Part shown: positions 27,613 to 36,462 of the stretch, piece by piece
Numbering within the stretch: position 1 is the first letter of the stretch
Layout: every line of letters starts with the position of its first letter
Origin: Acidobacteriota bacterium
GTDB taxonomy: Bacteria; Acidobacteriota; Terriglobia; Acidiferrales; UBA7541
Assembly (NCBI GenBank): GCA_013289585.1
Contig: JABCZR010000012.1
Coordinates: 62,001-126,000 of the forward strand
Direction of reading: 5' to 3'
Length of the DNA: 64,000 bases
Made by a program: the position numbers and the translations under genes
Notes under the pieces: model-generated
What the model saw: the letters and a program-made list of their open reading frames with translations, nothing else
What the model was told of the DNA's origin: nothing
Databases searched by the model: none

Positions 27613-27996
27613 TCAGGCGGGGTTTCGAGGGGGACTTTCTACGAATTCGAGGCGATTGCCCCAGGGGTCTTCGGCGTGGAAGCGGCGAGTGCCTGGGATT
27701 GAATCGTCGTCGGAGACCTTGATGCCACGAGCGAGGAGAGCCTGACGGAGTTCATCGAGATCGCTGGTGAAGAACGCGGGATGAGCTTTTTTGGCGGGGC
27801 TGAAGTTTTGTTCGATGCCGACGTGAACTTGCTGGTTGCCGCACTGAAACCAGCATCCGCCGCGTGAGCGAAGCGACTCTGGCTTTTCGATCTCTTGCAG
27901 GCCAAGGAGCGAGCCATAGAATTCGCGAGCAGCGGCTTCGCAGCCTTGCGGAGCGGCGATCTGGATGTGATCGAACCTGGTGACGCGCACACTCAT
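27613..27996 (-). CDS. VOC/glyoxalase-fold protein
   Basis: A 127-residue protein with the paired beta-alpha-beta-beta-beta units of the vicinal oxygen chelate superfamily: FDHIQIAAP at the start (metal His), FYGSLLGLQEIEKP, HVGIEQN and the terminal FHAEDPWGNRLEFVE with the last Glu ligand. Members include glyoxalases, dioxygenases and antibiotic-binding proteins, and the sequence alone does not say which. The start at 27996 (MSVRVTRFDHI) is preferred because homologues normally begin a few residues before the first strand. It diverges from the Mla-type operon. Confidence 0.88.
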   Translation of the reverse strand: MSVRVTRFDHIQIAAPQGCEAAAREFYGSLLGLQEIEKPESLRSRGGCWFQCGNQQVHVGIEQNFSPAKKAHPAFFTSDLDELRQALLARGIKVSDDDSIPGTRRFHAEDPWGNRLEFVESPPRNPA

Positions 27997-28147
27997 ACTT
28001 GAACAGAATATCAGTATGCAGCGGCATGCGTCGCGCAACGGACGCAGGGAAATCGCTTACTTGACGTGCTGTTGCCGCACGGTTAGGCTTTCGTGCAGTA
28101 ATGCTGTCGAGAAGTTCATCGCGGAAGGCCAACGCGAAAAGGGACTC

Positions 28148-28990
28148 GTGGCAGACACATCTTTCCAGGTAACTGGCGGAGAATCCAAGCAGGAACCTAG
28201 CCTATCGGTCATGGACTTGATGGTGGATACCGCCAAGGGAGCGGTGGCCAACGTACAAGACTACGCACTGTTATCCGGGCATGCGGTGGCCAACATCTTT
28301 ACAAGCCCGCACTACTTTCAAGACACACTGGAACAGATGGATTTTATAGGCGCGGGATCGCTGCCGATTATTTTGTTGTCGGGTTTCTTCATCGGCGCGG
28401 TCATGGTTCTGCAAACGGGGTCGCAATTCGTGCGATTCGGACAGAGTTCGTTGACGGGGGATGTCGTCTCGATAGCGCTGGTGCGCGAACTGGGGCCGGC
28501 GTTTACAGGCTTGCTGGTAACGGGGCGGTGCGCGACGGGAATCGCGTCGGAGCTGGGGTCCATGCTGGTGACCGAGCAAGTGGACGCCATGCGAGCAATG
28601 GGGACGGATCCAAACCGCAAACTGGTGACGCCGCGAGTGATCGCGGCGATCCTGATGCTGCCGTTGTTGACGGCGATCATGGATTTTATCGGTCTGCTGG
28701 GTGGCTGCGCTTCATCGGTTTTTTCGCTGCGCCTGGGAGCGGTGGAATTCTGGCGGCGCGCGATTGATGCCCTGGATTTCGCGGACTTGATGCAGGGATT
28801 CACGAAGCCGGTGGTCTTCGGTTTCATTCTAGCGACTATCGGATGTTACAAGGGATTGACGGTACGAGGCGGCACGCAGGGTGTTGGGCGCGCGACGACG
28901 CAAGCGGCCGTGCTAGGTTCCGTGCTGATCATCGTGGCCGATGCATTCTTGACGAAACTAGCGCTGTACCTTGCCAACAAAGGTTTCTGA
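28148..28990 (+). CDS. MlaE-family ABC transporter permease
   Basis: This is the membrane subunit of an Mla-type system that moves phospholipids between outer and inner membranes. The MlaE pattern is clear: LPIILLSGFFIGAVMVLQTG, the conserved SIALVRELGPAFTGLLVTGR segment, a EQVDAMRAMGTDPNRKLVTPR cytoplasmic loop and five or so spans. The N-terminus is uncertain. I chose GTG at 28148 after an AAAAGGGA site, giving 280 residues; an ATG at 28211 would give about 260, and longer frames overlap the divergent VOC gene. The ATPase and MCE genes follow at once, as in mla loci. Confidence 0.93.
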   Translation: MADTSFQVTGGESKQEPSLSVMDLMVDTAKGAVANVQDYALLSGHAVANIFTSPHYFQDTLEQMDFIGAGSLPIILLSGFFIGAVMVLQTGSQFVRFGQSSLTGDVVSIALVRELGPAFTGLLVTGRCATGIASELGSMLVTEQVDAMRAMGTDPNRKLVTPRVIAAILMLPLLTAIMDFIGLLGGCASSVFSLRLGAVEFWRRAIDALDFADLMQGFTKPVVFGFILATIGCYKGLTVRGGTQGVGRATTQAAVLGSVLIIVADAFLTKLALYLANKGF

Positions 28991-29078
28991 CGAGAGAGAT
29001 GCTGCCACCTGGCCGGCTGCCCCATCCATTCCGAAGAGAGAACGAGATTTCCCGCTATAATCGCAGGCGTGGCCGATA

Positions 29079-29912
29079 ATGGCCGCGTCTATGCCCACAC
29101 CTGGATCAACCGCGGCAATCACGTTTGAAGATGTACACATCGGATTCGAAGAAGGAGAGATCCTTCGAGGCGTATCGTTCTCCGTGCGCGAACGGGAGAC
29201 GCTGGTCTTGCTGGGCGAGACCGGCACGGGGAAGACGCTTACCTTGAAAATGGCGGCAGGATTGCTGCGGCCGGCGCGAGGAAATGTGAGAGTTCTCGGC
29301 CAAGATATTTCACGGATGCCGGAGAAGGATTTGCTGGATTTTCGAAGGAAAGTTGGATTCGTTTTCCAGGAAGGCGCGCTGTTTGATTCGATGACGGTGG
29401 CCGACAACGTGGCTTACCGGCTGCACGAAGATCACGTTCCTGCGGAAGAGATAGAGCCGCGGGTCCTCGAGGTGCTGCGATTCGTCGAACTGGAAGACAC
29501 GCTGGATCTGGTTCCTTCGGAACTGTCCGGAGGCATGAGGCGCCGGGTGTCCATCGCGCGGGCGCTGATCAACCATCCGCCCATCGTGCTGTACGACTCG
29601 CCGACCGCGGGACTCGATCCAGTGACATCGCAGACGATCATTACGCTGATCTTGCGGCTGAGGGACGTTTACGGAGTCACGGCGCTGATGGCGACGCCGC
29701 GCTTGCAAGACGGTTTTGGCCTGGCGAATTTTCATTTTGATGCAGAGAGCAAGCGAGTGGTGCAGAACAATCAAAACGGAAGTGCCGGAGGACCAGCGAA
29801 GGCACCGATCACGCGATTCCTGGTTTATCGTGACGGAGGAATCTATTTCGAAGGAGAACCGGCGGAGCTAGCAGGTTCCGCGGACCCGTACCTTAAGCGC
29901 TTTCTTGAGTAG
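29079..29912 (+). CDS. MlaF-like ABC ATPase with altered catalytic residues
   Basis: This is the nucleotide-binding subunit expected to power the Mla-type transporter. Walker A GETGTGKT at 46-53, Q-loop FQEGALFD (Gln 97) and signature LSGGM at 149-153 are intact. The Walker B motif reads IVLYDSPTAGLD, with Ser 174 in place of the catalytic Glu. The switch region reads ALMATPRLQD, with Pro 207 where the H-loop His is expected. Both residues needed for ATP hydrolysis in ordinary ABC ATPases are therefore missing, although ATP binding should be possible. The C-terminal part (about 215-277) is longer than in E. coli MlaF. It sits between the permease and MCE genes. Confidence 0.9.
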   Translation: MAASMPTPGSTAAITFEDVHIGFEEGEILRGVSFSVRERETLVLLGETGTGKTLTLKMAAGLLRPARGNVRVLGQDISRMPEKDLLDFRRKVGFVFQEGALFDSMTVADNVAYRLHEDHVPAEEIEPRVLEVLRFVELEDTLDLVPSELSGGMRRRVSIARALINHPPIVLYDSPTAGLDPVTSQTIITLILRLRDVYGVTALMATPRLQDGFGLANFHFDAESKRVVQNNQNGSAGGPAKAPITRFLVYRDGGIYFEGEPAELAGSADPYLKRFLE

Positions 29913-29956
29913 TCTTGGGGTAGTCTGTTGGACAGGATGTCGGGAGGGAAGCAGCC

Positions 29957-31042
29957 ATGGCGAGTAGAAAACAACTTACCTGGACGGAATTGCGGGTGGG
30001 ACTGTTCGTGCTTGTCGGTTTGTTCGTGCTGGCCTCGGGCATCTTCTACGTCACCGGCTCGGGATTTCTGGGGCCCAAGTATACGTTGAAGACCTATCTC
30101 CCGGAGGTCTCGGGGCTAACGAATGGAGCACCGGTGCGGGTGGATGGCGTCGAAGTCGGCAACGTGGAAAATGTCCGGCTGTTGCCGCGGACACCCGGCA
30201 AGCCGCTGGAAAAAAACAAGAATATCGAAGTGGTGATGCGCGTGGACCGGCGATTCGAAAATGACATCCTCACGGATTCGGCCGCCAGTCTGGTAACCGA
30301 GGGTCTGCTGGGCAACCGCTACGTGAACATTACGCGCGGATTCACCGGGAAGCCCCTCAGCGACAAAGGCGTGATTCCCGGGGCGGAAGAAAAGGCCATG
30401 AAAGAGGTGGTAGAACGGAGCGCGGAAGTGCTGGGAAATCTTAACGCGCTCTCCGACGAAATCCGCGAGCTGATTCAAGGCGTGAAAGAAGGGAAGGGGT
30501 CGCTGGGGAAATTGCTGACCGATGAACAGGCGTACAACCATTTGAACGGGATTCTGGCGAAGAGCGAAGCCATGGTGACCAATGTTCAGGCCGGGCAAGG
30601 CACCTTGGGGAAACTGATCGCTTCGGACGAAATGTATTCGAAAGTGGATAAAGGCCTGGACAATGTAAATGTAATCCTGACGGACGTCCGGGCGCAGAAG
30701 GGAACGATCGGAAAGCTGCTGTATGACCCGTCGCTGTATGACCAGGCCAAGCAGGCACTGGCCAACGGGAACGCCACGCTGGATGACGTGCGAGCGGGAA
30801 AGGGCACGCTGGGCAAGCTGGTAACGGATGACACTCTCTACAACAAGATGCGTGACACCAGTTCGAACCTGGCGACGGCCACCGCCAAGCTGAATGAAAA
30901 CACGAATACGGCGGGCAAGATTTTCTCCGACCCAAAGTTATATGACAACCTGACGCAGTTGACGGGTGACATGCGGCTGCTGATTTCGGATTTCCGCGCG
31001 AATCCGAAAAAGTTCCTGCACATCAAGGTCACGCTTTTCTAA
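29957..31042 (+). CDS. MlaD-family MCE protein with five 34-residue C-terminal repeats
   Basis: MCE proteins form hexameric rings that carry lipids across the periplasm. One membrane anchor (residues 13-34) is followed by a single MCE domain (about 42-125; YLPEVSGLTNGAPVRVDGV). From residue 179 to 348 there are five tandem units of exactly 34 residues, each starting with a (G/Q)xGxxGKL-like motif and a (D/E)xxxY pair, such as GKGSLGKLLTDEQAY, GQGTLGKLIASDEMY and QKGTIGKLLYDPSLY. The protein ends with a short basic tail. Repeated helical extensions may form a tube or tether in the hexamer. It is coupled to the upstream ATPase gene by a 44-base gap. Confidence 0.93.
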   Translation: MASRKQLTWTELRVGLFVLVGLFVLASGIFYVTGSGFLGPKYTLKTYLPEVSGLTNGAPVRVDGVEVGNVENVRLLPRTPGKPLEKNKNIEVVMRVDRRFENDILTDSAASLVTEGLLGNRYVNITRGFTGKPLSDKGVIPGAEEKAMKEVVERSAEVLGNLNALSDEIRELIQGVKEGKGSLGKLLTDEQAYNHLNGILAKSEAMVTNVQAGQGTLGKLIASDEMYSKVDKGLDNVNVILTDVRAQKGTIGKLLYDPSLYDQAKQALANGNATLDDVRAGKGTLGKLVTDDTLYNKMRDTSSNLATATAKLNENTNTAGKIFSDPKLYDNLTQLTGDMRLLISDFRANPKKFLHIKVTLF

Positions 31043-31145: not shown

Positions 31146-31907
31146 ATGGAAAATCAGGACGTAACGCAGAAGGCCTCGAGGACCGAGGCGTCGAAATCCA
31201 CACTTCCGCAGCCAGGGAGGCCGGTGCCGAGCCGCGCGTATCCCGGGGCGCTCATCGTGGTGGAAGGCACCGACGGATCAGGCAAGAGCACGCAACTGTA
31301 TTTGCTGAAGCGCTGGCTGGAAATCGGCGGGTACCGGCTGCATTTTACGGAATGGAATTCTTCGCCACTGGTGAAATCGGCGACGCGCCGCGGCAAACAA
31401 CGGCGGCTGTTGACGCCGGCGACATTTTCGCTGCTGCATGCGGCGGATTTTGCGGACCGTTGCGAGCGGCAGATCATGCCGTTGCTGCAGGGCGACTACC
31501 TGGTGCTTGCGGATCGCTACATTTATACGGCGTTCGCGCGGGACGCGGCGCGCGGCTGCCCGCCTCGCTGGCTGCGAAACCTGTATCGTTTCGCGCCGAT
31601 TCCGGACATCACGTTTTATTTTCGCGCGCCGCTGGATGTTGCCGTGCACCGCATACTGAGCGGGCGCCCGAAACTGAAATATTACGAAGCGGGGATGGAT
31701 CTGGGGATGTCTTATGACCGCGCGGAGAGTTTTCGATTGTTTCAGGCGCGGATCCTGGAGGAGTACGACAAAATGGTGGACTCCGACAATTTCGTGGTAC
31801 TCGACGGCACGCTGCCCGTGAATAAATTGCAAAAGCAGATGCGGGATATCGTGGCGTCCAAGATCGATTTGAAGCGATTCGCTCCGCGCGCGCAGGAGCC
31901 AGAGTGA
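31146..31907 (+). CDS. Thymidylate-kinase-like P-loop kinase, copy 1
   Basis: A P-loop kinase of the thymidylate kinase fold: VVEGTDGSGKST at 39-49, VLADRYIYTAFARD corresponding to the DRY motif, and a C-terminal helix. The TREPGGT motif of genuine TMP kinases is missing: the corresponding segment reads HFTEWNSSPLVKS. A distinctive YYEAGMDLGMSYD motif follows in the lid region and recurs in the next gene. It may therefore phosphorylate something other than dTMP. Residues 1-33 are a polar extension. The gene overlaps the next by four bases and is followed by phosphatase genes suggestive of polyphosphate or phosphate signalling. Confidence is high for fold, low for substrate. Confidence 0.85.
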   Translation: MENQDVTQKASRTEASKSTLPQPGRPVPSRAYPGALIVVEGTDGSGKSTQLYLLKRWLEIGGYRLHFTEWNSSPLVKSATRRGKQRRLLTPATFSLLHAADFADRCERQIMPLLQGDYLVLADRYIYTAFARDAARGCPPRWLRNLYRFAPIPDITFYFRAPLDVAVHRILSGRPKLKYYEAGMDLGMSYDRAESFRLFQARILEEYDKMVDSDNFVVLDGTLPVNKLQKQMRDIVASKIDLKRFAPRAQEPE

Positions 31908-32752
31908 CCATGCCGGATCAGGACAAAGACAAAACTCCGGCGGCAGCGATTCCGGCCGAACTTCCGACGGCGTCCACCACAGTCCCAGCCAAAGCTGCAG
32001 CGGCCGTGGAAGAGGCTTCAGCACATTATTTTTTTGGTGAGCCGCTGGTGGGATTTGATCCCAGTGAAATTACGGGAAGCCTGGTGGTGATCGAGGGCAT
32101 GGACGGTTCCGGCCGGTCGACGCAGATCGCCCTTCTGCAGGAATGGCTGGAATCCGAGGGCTTCGCGGTGCAGACGAGCGGGCTGCGGCGTTCGAATCTG
32201 GTGGGCCGCGACATCGATGAGCTGCTGGCGAAAAACGCGGTGACACGGCTTACACTGGCGCTGATGTATGCGACGGACTTCTTCGACCAGGTCGAACACC
32301 GCATTCTTCCCGCGCTACGTTCCGGCACGGTGGTTCTCGCCGACCGCTTTATTTTCACGTTGATCGCGCGAGGTGTGGTGCGTGGGATCAATCGCGACTA
32401 TATGAGCGGACTTTACGCCATGGCGCTGCGACCGCATCTGACTTTTTGGCTTAACGTGCGGCCGGAGACGGCATTCGGGCGCGAATTCAAGAAGGCGCAG
32501 GCCATCAGCTATTGGGAAGCAGGGCGGGACATGTCCCTGTCTCACGATCTTTATTGGTCTTTTATCCGCTACCAGACGATGATCAAGCGTGAATTCGAAG
32601 TGATGGCCAAGCGGCACAGCTTCATCGAACTGGACGGCGAGGCCAGCGTTTCCACGGTGAACAAGCAGCTTCGCCAGCGCATCAGCGAACAGCTGGGAAT
32701 CCGCAGCACGAAGTACACGCCTTCTGCGGCGCTTGCGCATCTCTGGCGGTAG
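31904..32752 (+). CDS. Thymidylate-kinase-like protein, copy 2, with Arg in the P-loop
   Basis: This is a diverged tandem relative of the preceding gene: VVIEGMDGSGRST, VLADRFIFTLIARG, then YWEAGRDMSLSHD matching the YYEAGMDLGMSYD of copy 1. Residue 71, normally the invariant Walker A Lys, is Arg (codon CGG), which usually cripples phosphate binding. It also lacks the TREPGGT motif. A 55-residue Ala/Pro/Thr-rich leader precedes the domain. The GTG start at 31904 is preferred over ATG at 31910 because an AGGAG site lies seven bases upstream. It may be a regulatory or heterodimer partner of copy 1 rather than an active kinase. Eight bases separate it from the next gene. Confidence 0.85.
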   Translation: MTMPDQDKDKTPAAAIPAELPTASTTVPAKAAAAVEEASAHYFFGEPLVGFDPSEITGSLVVIEGMDGSGRSTQIALLQEWLESEGFAVQTSGLRRSNLVGRDIDELLAKNAVTRLTLALMYATDFFDQVEHRILPALRSGTVVLADRFIFTLIARGVVRGINRDYMSGLYAMALRPHLTFWLNVRPETAFGREFKKAQAISYWEAGRDMSLSHDLYWSFIRYQTMIKREFEVMAKRHSFIELDGEASVSTVNKQLRQRISEQLGIRSTKYTPSAALAHLWR

Positions 32753-32760
32753 ATCCCTCA

Positions 32761-34302
32761 ATGCCTGAGCCGGTTCACATTGCCGCCATCGACGCCGGCT
32801 CCAACGCGCTCCGCCTGTCCGTGGCGCGAGCATATTCGGCGCTCGATATCGAGCCGGTACATGACGAACGGTATTCGCTGCGTTTGGGTGAAGGCGTGTT
32901 TCTGCGCCACCGATTCAGCGAGGAAGTTTTCAAACGGACAGCGAAAGCCTTCCGCCACTTCCGTGAAGTGATGGATGAATTCGGAGTGACGCGTTATCGG
33001 GCTGTGGCTACGAGCGCGACGCGCGAAGCGCAAAATCGCAAGCCCTTTGTTCGCGCAATCAAGAAAAAATCAGGAATCGCGCTGGAAGTCATCAGCGCCG
33101 CGGAAGAGTCGCGGCTTGGAAGGGAAGCGGTGCTGGCAGCGTTTGGAGCGGAGGCGCCGAGGTGCATCGTCGATCTAGGGGGTGGGAGCCTGGAAATCAG
33201 CATCCTCCAGGACCACACCGTGGAGCAGGCGGCACAACTGCCGGTGGGTACCGTGCGGTTGATGACCACTTTGAATCTTCGCGGCGCGATTCGTCCGGCG
33301 CAGGGCGAGCAGGTGCGGCGCTACGTGCGCGCGCTGCTGGAGTCGAAATTGGCGCCACGGCCGAATCTCGGCGAAAGCATCGCCGTGGCGCTGGGAGGAA
33401 ATGCTGAAACGCTGGCAAATGTGGCGCCGGGACCGCGGCAGCATGGGCTGCAGACGGTGGAACTTTCGCTCTTGCGCGAACGACTTCCGGACATTCTCAA
33501 GCGCAACGTGCGAGAACGGATGAAGGCGTATGCGGTGCGGCGCGACCGCGCCGACGTGATGGGCATTGCCGCCATCACCATCATCACTCTTGGACGATTC
33601 CTGAATCTGCGCACATTCGCGATACCCGGTGTTGGGGTGCGCGACGGAGTCCTGCAAGAGATTGCGCGCGAGGCATTTTCACGCAAAGAGCCGCACCACT
33701 ACAATGTTGCCGCGCGGCAGCTCATTGTCGGAACACGCAGTTTTGCGCGGCGGCTCGGATACGACCCGCAGCATGCCGAGCATGTGCGGGAGCTGAGCAT
33801 TCTGCTTTTCGATCAGTTGCAGGCGCTGCATCATCTTCCAGCGCAGGCCCGGGTGCTCCTGGAGGCCGGGGCGCTAATGCACGATACGGGGCACCTGGTG
33901 GGGGACCGCGGGCATCACAAGCATGGCGAGTATTTAGCGCTGAACGGCGACGTGCCGGGGCTGGAAGGGCGGGACCGCGCGATCGTCGCGGCTCTCGTGC
34001 GATACCATAATCGCAAGTCGGAACCGGCGCAGCATCACGCGGCTTATTCATCGTTGAACAACGCCGACCAGCGAATTACCAGGAGGCTGGCGGCGATTTT
34101 GCGGATTGCCGAGGCGCTCGATCATGCACACCGCCAGCGAGTGCTGAAAATTCGAGCTTCGTTTCAGCGCGGCACCGTCGGGTTGCAAGTGACCGCGCGA
34201 GGCGATGCAGCGGAAGACATGCGCGACGCGAGCCGCAGCGCGGAGTTGTTTGAGAAAGAGTTTCACGTGAGGGTTTATTTCCGGCAGGCGCCGGCAAGTT
34301 AA
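32761..34302 (+). CDS. Ppx/GppA-family phosphatase with C-terminal HD domain
   Basis: This hydrolyses terminal phosphates of polyphosphate and/or pppGpp. The ASKHA-fold phosphatase half shows AAIDAGSNALRLSV, ATSATREAQN, AEESRLG and the phosphate-binding VDLGGGSLEI. The C-terminal half is HD-like, with LMHDTGHLVG and a later VRYHNRKSEP...AILRIAEALDHAHRQ stretch. At 513 residues it matches full-length Ppx. It is eight bases downstream of the kinase-like pair and therefore probably cotranscribed, and upstream of sixA. Whether it prefers polyphosphate or pppGpp cannot be told from the sequence. Confidence 0.93.
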   Translation: MPEPVHIAAIDAGSNALRLSVARAYSALDIEPVHDERYSLRLGEGVFLRHRFSEEVFKRTAKAFRHFREVMDEFGVTRYRAVATSATREAQNRKPFVRAIKKKSGIALEVISAAEESRLGREAVLAAFGAEAPRCIVDLGGGSLEISILQDHTVEQAAQLPVGTVRLMTTLNLRGAIRPAQGEQVRRYVRALLESKLAPRPNLGESIAVALGGNAETLANVAPGPRQHGLQTVELSLLRERLPDILKRNVRERMKAYAVRRDRADVMGIAAITIITLGRFLNLRTFAIPGVGVRDGVLQEIAREAFSRKEPHHYNVAARQLIVGTRSFARRLGYDPQHAEHVRELSILLFDQLQALHHLPAQARVLLEAGALMHDTGHLVGDRGHHKHGEYLALNGDVPGLEGRDRAIVAALVRYHNRKSEPAQHHAAYSSLNNADQRITRRLAAILRIAEALDHAHRQRVLKIRASFQRGTVGLQVTARGDAAEDMRDASRSAELFEKEFHVRVYFRQAPAS

Positions 34303-34392
34303 GAGTGAACAGTTGGCGGCGGGAGAACAAGGTTTCAACTACGGGCCCGGATCCCTGAGACGCTCGCTTTAAGATCGAGTTGAGAGGAAACC

Positions 34393-34893
34393 ATGCAGCT
34401 CTACATCGTTCGCCACGGAATTGCGATCGACCGTGAAAATCCGAAGTGTCCGCCGGATGCGGAGCGGTACTTGACAGAAGAAGGCGTGGAGAAGACCAAG
34501 CAGGTGGCGAAGGGAGTGGCGGCGCTGGGGGCCACGGCAGAGTTGTTGCTCTCGAGTCCCTACACGCGGGCGACGCAGACCGCGGAGATTTTTGCCGGGG
34601 CTCTCGACTACGCGAAGCAGAAAATCCGCAGGACGGATTTGCTGCTTCCGGGGGCGGATCCCTCGTTCTTATTCCGCGAGCTGGCGAAGGATAAGCAGTA
34701 CTCTTCCATCTTTCTGTTTGGCCACGCGCCGCAACTCGACGACATCATTGCCATGGCATTGGGCTCAAAGCATCACATCAGTTCACTGAAAAAGGCGGGT
34801 GTGGCGCTGGTCGAGTTGAAGCGCATCTCACCGCCGCTCGGCCAGCTGGCGTGGCTGGCGACACCGAAGCTGCTGCGGCGATCCGCGAAATAG
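34393..34893 (+). CDS. sixA: SixA-like phosphohistidine phosphatase
   Basis: This is a short member of the histidine phosphatase superfamily: IVRHGIAIDRE at the start (catalytic His 8 in RHG), SSPYTRATQTAEIF with the conserved Arg, and the late FLFGHAPQLDDI with the second catalytic His. Length of 166 residues fits SixA, which removes phosphate from phosphohistidine in phosphotransfer proteins. A role on another phosphoester is possible given its neighbours. The CHAD-domain gene ends 51 bases away on the opposite strand; the SixA/CHAD/Ppx neighbourhood is recurrent in bacteria. Confidence 0.9.
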   Translation: MQLYIVRHGIAIDRENPKCPPDAERYLTEEGVEKTKQVAKGVAALGATAELLLSSPYTRATQTAEIFAGALDYAKQKIRRTDLLLPGADPSFLFRELAKDKQYSSIFLFGHAPQLDDIIAMALGSKHHISSLKKAGVALVELKRISPPLGQLAWLATPKLLRRSAK

Positions 34894-34944
34894 TCGAGAC
34901 ATGTAAAGAGTTTTCAGCGCAGATTCCGCTGGGGAATGATTTGC

Positions 34945-36462
34945 TCAGTCGGAAGCGGCCGAAAACGCGGGGACCTGCGTCACTGGAAGGGTGACGACTT
35001 TTTCCGGCCGGGCGATGGGCTTTGCGATCAAGGGTATCTGCAGAAATTCTTCCAGCAAGTGCTTGCCGGCGGCGAGGCGGGCGGCGATTTGCACATCATC
35101 CACGAGGCCGGGAACGCGGAGAATGATGGCCTCGGAGGACTTTTCCGCGCGAAAACCGGCGCCGCTTTCCACTCCGCACTTGCGCATTGCGCGCGCAAAG
35201 CGCAGCAACCCCGCGAGCACTTGAACTTTCTTCTGCCGTTCCGCGGACAGCTTCGAAAAATGACCGCTCTCAGTGCTCGGTTCGGCTCCACGATGGTAGC
35301 GCACCGCGGAAGCCAGCAGTTCCCATTCTTCATTGGTCCAACCCGGAGGAAGCGCCAGACCGAGTAGAAACTTGCTGGCGCTTTTTTGCGGAGACTTGTT
35401 GCTGTGTGACTTGGCTACACCGTGCAAGCGCGCGGCGGCAAGCAAGATGCGGCGAAAAGTTGCATCGCTAAATGCGGATGCCGCGTTTGCCCGCCGGAAG
35501 GAGTCAAAGAGCGCGACCGCAATGCGAGAGATCTGTGAGGTTCGGCGCGGGCGCGGATCGATGGCACGCGCGGTCGCGCGCAGACGGGCCATGGTGGCTG
35601 CTTCGACCCGGCCGTTCGTCGGGAGACCAGAACGCCATTCGTGCCATAAACTGGTTTTGCCCAAGGTGAGCTGGCGATAGGTTTCAATGCGCTCGTGGTG
35701 TTCGCGCCCAATCGTTTCTTCCCAGGCTTTCCGCGAGTCTTCCGTTTCGACGGAATCGGATTCCTTCACGCTTGCGGCCAAGATATCGAGATCATGGATA
35801 TCGCCGAGCAGGTCCTGGACGCGTTTGAGGTTTTCACTCCAGGCTGCGTAATGCTCTGGGAGCAGGGATTCGACGGTGTAACGGAAGCGCTTTACGCCAA
35901 TGCGAAGCGCGTGCCAAGGCCTGGGCTTTTCCGTGCGCAGCGCCTTAGTGTGAAGATCCCGGGCGCGTTCGAATCGTTCGAGCGCCAGACATTCGGCGGC
36001 AAGACTGCCGACGGGGACGAGACGCGCGCGCTGGCGAAGTGTTCGCGCGAGGCGGTTCCAGGATTTTTCATCGAACTTGCTCGCAGCGCGGATGGCGGCG
36101 GCACGCAACGCAGGTTCGCTGGATTCGAATGCGGATTGTAGATGACCTCGAACGGCGTCGGTTTCAGGAGCGAGCTTTTTCACCCACTCGTTCATCACCT
36201 GCGCATCGCGAAGGGCTCCGAGACTGCGAAAGAGTTTGCGCCCGAGTTTGCGCATGGCCGGCCAGGCGGGATCGGGGTCTACCTCTTCCATCACGGCGGC
36301 CACGGAGCGGCAGCGCCGGATTGCGACACGGAGATCGTGGACGGCATCCGCGTCAGGGGACGAGCGGACATTTTTCAGCTCCACCAGGACGCGGTCCATC
36401 CAAAAGGGCAGACCGCGGTGCTCGGCTTGAGCCCCGGAAGCAAGGGGAGTGACAGTAGCCAT
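34945..36462 (-). CDS. CHAD-domain protein fused to a Ppx-C/HD-like domain
   Basis: CHAD domains are helical bundles rich in conserved basic residues that bind polyphosphate. The conserved blocks are clear: AVHDLRVAIRRCRS, LGALRDAQVM, WHALRIGVKRFRYTVE and LLGDIHDLDIL, over about residues 20-270. After a linker, residues about 330-480 look like the C-terminal domain of the Ppx protein encoded nearby: LLAAARLHGVAKSH versus LMHDTGHLVG, then VRYHRGAEPS versus VRYHNRKSEP, then LAGLLRFARAMRKC versus LAAILRIAEALDHA. The HD pair has become HG here, so the domain is probably non-catalytic. It converges on sixA. Confidence 0.88.
   Translation of the reverse strand: MATVTPLASGAQAEHRGLPFWMDRVLVELKNVRSSPDADAVHDLRVAIRRCRSVAAVMEEVDPDPAWPAMRKLGRKLFRSLGALRDAQVMNEWVKKLAPETDAVRGHLQSAFESSEPALRAAAIRAASKFDEKSWNRLARTLRQRARLVPVGSLAAECLALERFERARDLHTKALRTEKPRPWHALRIGVKRFRYTVESLLPEHYAAWSENLKRVQDLLGDIHDLDILAASVKESDSVETEDSRKAWEETIGREHHERIETYRQLTLGKTSLWHEWRSGLPTNGRVEAATMARLRATARAIDPRPRRTSQISRIAVALFDSFRRANAASAFSDATFRRILLAAARLHGVAKSHSNKSPQKSASKFLLGLALPPGWTNEEWELLASAVRYHRGAEPSTESGHFSKLSAERQKKVQVLAGLLRFARAMRKCGVESGAGFRAEKSSEAIILRVPGLVDDVQIAARLAAGKHLLEEFLQIPLIAKPIARPEKVVTLPVTQVPAFSAASD

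Follow-up and report, generated by a model that had tools for sequence, protein, structure and literature searches.

A thymidylate-kinase-like gene pair in Acidobacteriota as a probable bacterial family 3 polyphosphate kinase

Among described systems, the one closest to the gene pair reported here is archaeal. An archaeal family 3 polyphosphate kinase (PPK3) has reportedly been presented by Hofmann et al. (bioRxiv 2024 and J Biol Chem 2026), as titles and citing sentences tell it, and the gene encoding it in Sulfolobus acidocaldarius is presumably annotated as a thymidylate kinase. Here, we describe two adjacent genes, T1 and T2, whose products both have the thymidylate kinase (TMK) fold, in a stretch of 64,000 nucleotides from an Acidobacteriota bacterium (assembly GCA_013289585.1, contig JABCZR010000012.1, positions 62,001 to 126,000; hereafter the window). 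Judged by sequence comparison, the pair is probably a bacterial PPK3 in which T1 is the catalytic protein and T2 an obligate, probably non-catalytic partner. A preliminary description of the window had proposed a substrate linked to polyphosphate (polyP) instead of deoxythymidine monophosphate (dTMP), and this proposal is supported by the orthology of the pair, its gene neighbourhood, its complementarity with PPK1 and the presence of a separate tmk gene.

The crenarchaeal enzyme that synthesises polyP is reported to have been characterised in S. acidocaldarius (PMC11677633); titles and citing sentences name it an 'archaeal family 3 polyphosphate kinase', and the J Biol Chem 2026 version of that work is cited as a distinct PPK-type enzyme (PMC13318637). 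An account of Sulfolobus polyP states that ppx is Saci_2018, that its overexpression eliminates polyP and that archaea had, at the time of writing, yielded no PPK homologue (PMC7831078). The CHAD protein of S. solfataricus binds polyP with a KD of 45 nM (PMC6537752). Archaeal CHAD genes have been described in a conserved context with PPX nearby, in a paper where a figure legend abbreviates SixA, PPX, dTMP kinase and CHAD (PMC10892726). The archaeal PPK3 is probably the same orthologous pair, within the same gene set, as the SixA-PPX-T1-T2-CHAD-like cluster that we find in the Sulfolobaceae. It differs from the window pair in that the host of the latter is a bacterium with PPK1 and two PPK2s, and in that the window T2 has an arginine at the Walker A position.

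Both window proteins have ST1543 of Sulfolobus tokodaii as their nearest relative in structure and family databases, far above other TMKs. Against PDB sequences, T1 matched the ST1543 entry 2plr with 204 bits and T2 matched it with 135 bits, while other TMKs reached at most 56 and 52 bits, respectively, among the matches listed. ST1543 was also the best match in profile searches with either protein (275 bits for T1 with the next at 77, and 194 bits for T2 with the next at 71). The predicted structure of T1 (pLDDT 88) aligned to a second ST1543 entry, 5h70, with a VIA-align Z of 27.9 and a root-mean-square deviation of 1.7 over 207 residues, the next TMK scoring 24.2, and the predicted structure of T2 (pLDDT 87) had 2plr as its top Foldseek match. 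Sequence identity between T1 and ST1543 is about 47%. Like T1, ST1543 carries an EWNSS motif, an EAG-x-D lid motif and a phenylalanine at the thymine-contact position, and it is an ortholog of T1; unlike the reading given here for T1, it is annotated as a dTMP kinase.

In an IQ-TREE phylogeny of 73 rows (34 T1, 34 T2 and five canonical tmk rows, the last being long branches flagged by the program), a single branch with support 100/95 divided the T1s from the T2s across both domains of life, and the same split was recovered in 100% of 200 bootstrap trees. Archaeal and bacterial T1s grouped together, as did archaeal and bacterial T2s, and the window pair is thus orthologous to that of the Sulfolobaceae. 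The two clades stood side by side in this tree (T1 96/80, T2 100/95). A FastTree phylogeny of 230 rows, rooted on one tmk, nested T2 as a single clade (support 1.0) within a paraphyletic T1, so that the two trees conflict as to whether T2 originated inside or beside T1.

Among 31 Sulfolobaceae genomes, T1 with an adjoining T2 was present in 26 and a single match in the other five. The order SixA-PPX-T1-T2-CHAD-like was found in all 12 Sulfolobaceae loci read, including that of a genome with a 100% match to 2plr. The PPX and SixA-like genes of one of these loci (L199) were clear matches, and PPX was split over two frames in two others (L202 and L209). At L202 (7185-10584, genome G345) T2 is interrupted by an unrelated stretch of about 2.7 kb, with T1, SixA, the two-frame PPX and the CHAD-like gene kept. 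The control genome of S. acidocaldarius had a detectable Ppx and neither PPK1 nor PPK2.

The corresponding genes of the window are:

31146-31907, plus strand: T1, a TMK-fold P-loop kinase of 253 residues (Pfam PF02223)
31904-32752, plus strand: T2, a paralogous TMK-fold protein of 282 residues (PF02223), for which an ATG at 31910 may be the start instead
32761-34302, plus strand: Ppx/GppA phosphatase of the exopolyphosphatase type with HD domain III (PF02541, 161 bits; PF21447; PF01966)
34393-34893, plus strand: SixA-type protein of the histidine phosphatase fold (TIGR00249, 79.7 bits, cut-off 74.5)
34945-36462, minus strand: CHAD protein, convergent with the others (PF05235, 113 bits)

All five genes lie where the preliminary description had placed them, as two overlapping P-loop kinase genes followed by a Ppx-HD gene after an 8-base gap, by sixA and by a convergent CHAD gene. 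The gap is that between the T2 stop and the ppx start. The overlap of T1 and T2 amounts to 4 nt (GTGA) and depends on the GTG start of T2, since the in-frame ATG at 31910, two codons downstream, would leave none. PF02223 was the sole domain found in T1 and T2 by a Pfam search at E 0.001. The Ppx/GppA protein scored 199 bits on TIGR03706, below the NCBIfam cut-off of 307. The C-terminus of the CHAD protein holds an additional Ppx-GppA_III/HD-like domain (PF21447, 38.9 bits), in which the HD pair seems, by eye, to be degenerate. Of 24 relatives from the same genus, 22 carried the pair, in one a contig edge left T2 and the end of T1, and the remaining one (G009) had neither.

A scan of both domains with the T1 alignment returned at least 522 relatives, of which the best 80 loci were analysed. 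Record titles among the matches listed name Sulfolobus, Thermoplasmata, Nitrososphaeria, Methanoliparum and Bathyarchaeota on the archaeal side, and Verrucomicrobiota, Planctomycetota, Chloroflexi, Acidobacteria, Deltaproteobacteria and others on the bacterial side. A second kinase of the family was present in all 80 loci, which argues that the arrangement did not arise by chance, and T1 preceded T2 on the same strand in all 76 loci where this could be measured. PPX was found in 41 of the 80, CHAD in 34 and SixA in 30; at least one of the three in 52, and all three in 21. Within the Acidobacteriota, every one of the 33 strong T1 matches (above 245 bits) had an adjoining T2 match. Thirty core loci of this phylum were read, four of them being the window and members of its genus. 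At least one of Ppx, SixA and CHAD accompanied the pair in 25, other families included, and all three did so in 12. Together with the 12 Sulfolobaceae loci, these counts bear out the expectation that relatives would keep the gene set. No natural T1-T2 fusion was found with the T1 profile in the Acidobacteriota loci compared or the 80 scan loci. PPK2 genes occurred near the pair in three loci (L074:8990-9985, detected by phmmer, L119:9383-10900 and L128:13711-15324), and those of L119 and L128 have two PF03976 stretches each.

The distribution of the pair was compared with that of PPK1, Ppx and PPK2 in 247 Acidobacteriota genomes that were at least 90% complete. A match to the T1/T2 family was found in 46 of these, and 13 of the 46 were counted as pair-negative (six with the third lineage described below and seven with weak matches only); G259, with a T2-clade member at a contig end only, was counted as positive. 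Six genomes with a weak or partial Ppx and ten with a weak PPK2 were scored as negative for those genes. Pair and PPK1 occurred together in six genomes, the pair only in 27, PPK1 only in 145 and neither in 69 (Fisher p 1e-7), which is to say that PPK1 was present in 6 of 33 pair-positive against 145 of 214 pair-negative genomes. When the 152 genomes with a clear Ppx were considered, 121 had PPK1 only, 21 the pair only, six both and four neither. Conversely, Ppx was found in 21 of the 27 PPK1-negative genomes with the pair and in 4 of the 69 without it (p 3e-12). Genus and family tables were restricted to Ppx-positive genomes. At the genus level, PPK1 was present in 6 of 20 genera with the pair and 67 of 70 others, genus g54 having both kinds of genome and being counted on both sides. 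Within each of the families f37, f40 and f54, pair-bearing genomes lacked PPK1 and pair-less genomes had it; families f17 and f26 were mixed. Outside the survey, 50 of the 80 scan loci gave 49 pair-bearing genomes, of which five had PPK1, none of these five being among the 21 archaeal genomes. PPK1 (PF02503) and the pair would share a proposed role in polyP synthesis with complementary distributions, and yet they belong to different protein families, PP_kinase domains being absent from T1 and T2. Some genomes that handle polyP are devoid of PPK1, and since 21 of the 25 such genomes with a clear Ppx in this survey carry the pair, it is a concrete candidate for the polyP-making enzyme that has been missing from several bacterial phyla. 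The genome of the window has PPK1 and two PPK2s elsewhere, and the pair is therefore not the sole polyP candidate there.

That PPK1 is already present in this genome lends some weight to a different reading, in which the pair is mainly a polyP-driven nucleotide kinase of the PPK2 kind that recharges nucleotides by converting nucleoside mono- or diphosphates and polyP to nucleoside di- or triphosphates. A common ancestor among the P-loop kinases has been proposed for PPK2 and thymidylate kinases, and PPK2C, a PPK2 protein of class II, combines an inactive and an active domain (PMC8776046), a parallel to T2 and T1. Class II PPK2 thus resembles the pair in its TMK-like P-loop fold, its polyP chemistry and its active and inactive halves (PMC8776046), and differs in being one fused protein where T1 and T2 are two genes. 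Membership of the pair in PPK2 proper was ruled out, as neither protein matched PF03976 at E 0.001; a weak PPK2 match (E 0.28) was obtained with the T2 profile. The absence of PPK2 chains from the 50 structure matches listed for each model does not indicate a difference in fold. Complementarity holds between the pair and PPK1 and not between the pair and PPK2, which in PPK1-negative genomes co-occurs with the pair (21 of 27 with the pair, 4 of 69 without). Moreover, Sulfolobus needs a polyP maker, and S. acidocaldarius matches neither PPK1 nor PPK2. We therefore regard a mainly PPK2-like function as unlikely.

Residue tallies were made over 111 T1 sequences (104 rows of the FastTree set and seven added by hand, namely five Thermoplasmata, the Sulfolobus locus L107 and 2plr) and 107 T2 sequences. 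Eleven kinase fragments shorter than 185 residues were left out before counting: seven third-lineage partners without a P-loop and four T2 copies, all four of which have arginine at the Walker A position. The relevant positions in the window are:

31284-31286, plus strand: codon of the T1 Walker A lysine, K47 (in EGTDGSGKST); lysine in 111 of 111 T1
31350-31364, plus strand: T1 EWNSS motif at the TREPGGT position; W70, N71, S72 and S73 each in 111 of 111
31680-31700, plus strand: T1 lid motif YYEAGMD; E, A and G in 111 of 111, D in 110
32114-32116, plus strand: T2 Walker A position, arginine R71 and not lysine (in EGMDGSGRST); arginine in 107 of 107 T2
32180-32194, plus strand: T2 GLRRS motif at the TREPGGT position; of 107 T2, 104 have the second R and 104 the S
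32510-32530, plus strand: T2 lid motif YWEAGRD; E205, G207 and D209 invariant in the T2 alignment A2

T1 shows the TMK fold with a complete P-loop and DR motif, and T2 shows the same with arginine for the Walker A lysine, retaining the Walker A aspartate, the DR pair and invariant arginines. These features are shared with canonical tmk products, which differ in having TREPGGT and a thymine-reading arginine, both replaced in T1 and T2. As had been noted for the window, both kinases lack TREPGGT, and this extends to the wider family: (T/S)EWNSS stands there in T1 (E in 106 of 111) and mostly G-L-[K/R]-R-S in T2, which usually has an extra arginine where T1 has serine (104 of 107). The thymine-contact position, an arginine in the TMK of Thermus thermophilus by alignment, is phenylalanine in 110 of 111 T1 and 106 of 107 T2. 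The arginine of TREPGG and the thymine-contact arginine are presumably the dTMP-recognition residues, and T1 and T2 thus carry neither. The lid motif that the preliminary description saw in both proteins is likewise common to the two families, as E-A/S-G-x-D (in T2, E in 106 of 107, G and D in 107 of 107). In the 12 Sulfolobaceae loci the Walker A residue is lysine in every T1, and arginine in eight and lysine in four T2s. With the lysine replaced by arginine in most sequences, T2 probably does not turn over adenosine triphosphate (ATP), and its pocket may be read, from these residues, as one for binding phosphate or polyP with little or no turnover.

T1 is not the only tmk-type gene of its genome. 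The separate ordinary tmk that was expected elsewhere has a counterpart at C2:206492-207010, where a PF02223 gene adjoins one that NCBIfam matches best to holB (161.1 bits, below the cut-off of 180.6); a deoxynucleoside kinase gene lies on C1 of the same genome. The best dTMP kinase model for this separate tmk was NF005923 (135 bits, cut-off of 193 not reached); on TIGR00041 it scored 64.9 bits against a cut-off of 83.25, which T1 (86.5) and T2 (85.6) pass. The T2s of two other loci fell below it (80.0 and 44.6). A third, unlinked tmk-like match was present in 26 of 26 pair-bearing Sulfolobaceae, and in the genome that matches 2plr at 100% the other tmk-like gene scored higher on TIGR00041 (152.7 against 109.4). 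Since T1 and T2 pass TIGR00041, automatic pipelines likely call them dTMP kinases, and, as the separate tmk stays below both NCBIfam dTMP kinase cut-offs scored, the label tmk may be given to the wrong genes; the scores thus serve as a pointer to misannotation.

An ordinary dTMP kinase was rejected as the principal explanation of T1 because of the separate tmk, the replaced recognition residues and the complementarity with PPK1. A related proposal, that T1 is a second kinase for dTMP or another deoxynucleoside monophosphate with incidental polyP neighbours, can point to the TMK fold, to the score on the TIGR00041 equivalog model and to the deposition of ST1543 as a dTMP kinase. It has to contend with the separate tmk-type genes of the same genomes, the replacement of the dTMP-contact positions, the PPK1 pattern and a link to Ppx, SixA and CHAD that spans two domains of life. 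Furthermore, by their titles, only one of the four ST1543 entries in the PDB (2plr, 4nzy, 4rzx and 5h70) names a ligand, adenosine diphosphate, and many other TMK entries name TMP. This proposal appears quite improbable, and more so than the PPK2-like one.

In the bacterial PPK3 that we propose, ATP would bind T1, which would pass the gamma-phosphate reversibly to the end of a polyP chain that a basic channel in T1, in T2 or in both would hold. T2 would stem from an old duplication and have been retained with T1, forming a mixed TMK-like dimer in which it may hold or guide the chain or regulate T1. Ppx would shorten the chain and CHAD would bind it. The pair would stand in for PPK1 in many Acidobacteriota; in the genome of the window, which has PPK1 and two PPK2s, it would add a third system. 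SixA in the cluster and the pseudokinase-like T2, a kind of partner common among regulators, might suggest that the pair is a kinase for regulation or signalling, with SixA, Ppx or some other protein as its target and with regulation as its only tie to polyP. This is nevertheless very improbable, as the filling of a PPK1 gap in Ppx-positive genomes fits a synthetic enzyme better and no further Pfam domain is present in T1 or T2.

Several observations weigh against the assignment of the pair as a bacterial PPK3. Six pair-positive genomes retain PPK1, that of the window included, and in families f20 and f33 PPK1 is present in the Ppx-positive genome with the pair, as it is in that genome's relatives. 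The Fisher tests ignore phylogeny, the genus-level count excepted. The 49 pair-bearing genomes drawn from the scan are mostly metagenome-assembled ones of completeness not given, so that the absence of PPK1 from most of them may be due in part to missing sequence. None of PPX, SixA and CHAD accompanied the pair in 28 of the 80 scanned loci, nor in 5 of the 30 core Acidobacteriota loci, some contigs being short. The CHAD calls of the Sulfolobaceae are weak, with one of four checked reaching the Pfam cut-off (19-26 bits against 25.6). The lysine in 4 of 12 Sulfolobaceae T2s suggests that T2 may be active there. T1 and T2 of the window score above the dTMP kinase cut-off of TIGR00041, and ST1543 has been deposited and, by title, published as a dTMP kinase. 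The presumed equation of the characterised S. acidocaldarius enzyme with the T1 ortholog rests on ppx being Saci_2018 and on the logic of the locus.

The kind of enzyme has already been reported in archaea. The literature searched contained no account of polyP kinase pairs of the TMK-like type in bacteria; the papers by Hofmann et al., which may cover them, lay outside it. Most likely to be new are the combination of a kinase with a Walker A-arginine partner and the repeated replacement of PPK1. We lean somewhat towards the wider view that a third polyP synthase, consisting of a catalytic kinase and an obligate partner with arginine for the Walker A lysine, found across many bacterial phyla and archaea and repeatedly replacing PPK1, explains polyP in many bacteria without PPK1 in which it is annotated as dTMP kinase. 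If T2 is inactive, the two proteins would constitute an old kinase-pseudokinase pair retained across both domains.

Other Acidobacteriota harbour a third lineage of such pairs, in which an intact kinase (with, for example, TRWASS or TKWNSS, and EAGQD) is followed by a partner that has lost its P-loop (L091:5674-7067, L094:5522-7083, L088, L090, L092, L093 and L100:445-1885). The pair of L091 adjoins genes for 2-oxoglutarate dehydrogenase E1 and E2 and for CotH. Six survey genomes had this lineage and no core pair, and PPK1 was present in five of them. Matches to MlaE and MlaD beside the pair were confined, among the loci compared for these genes, to the window and three members of its genus. 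In the window, mlaE, mlaF and mlaD (27980-31042) lie immediately upstream of T1, and the same three genes precede T1 in the genus members L101, L102 and L106.

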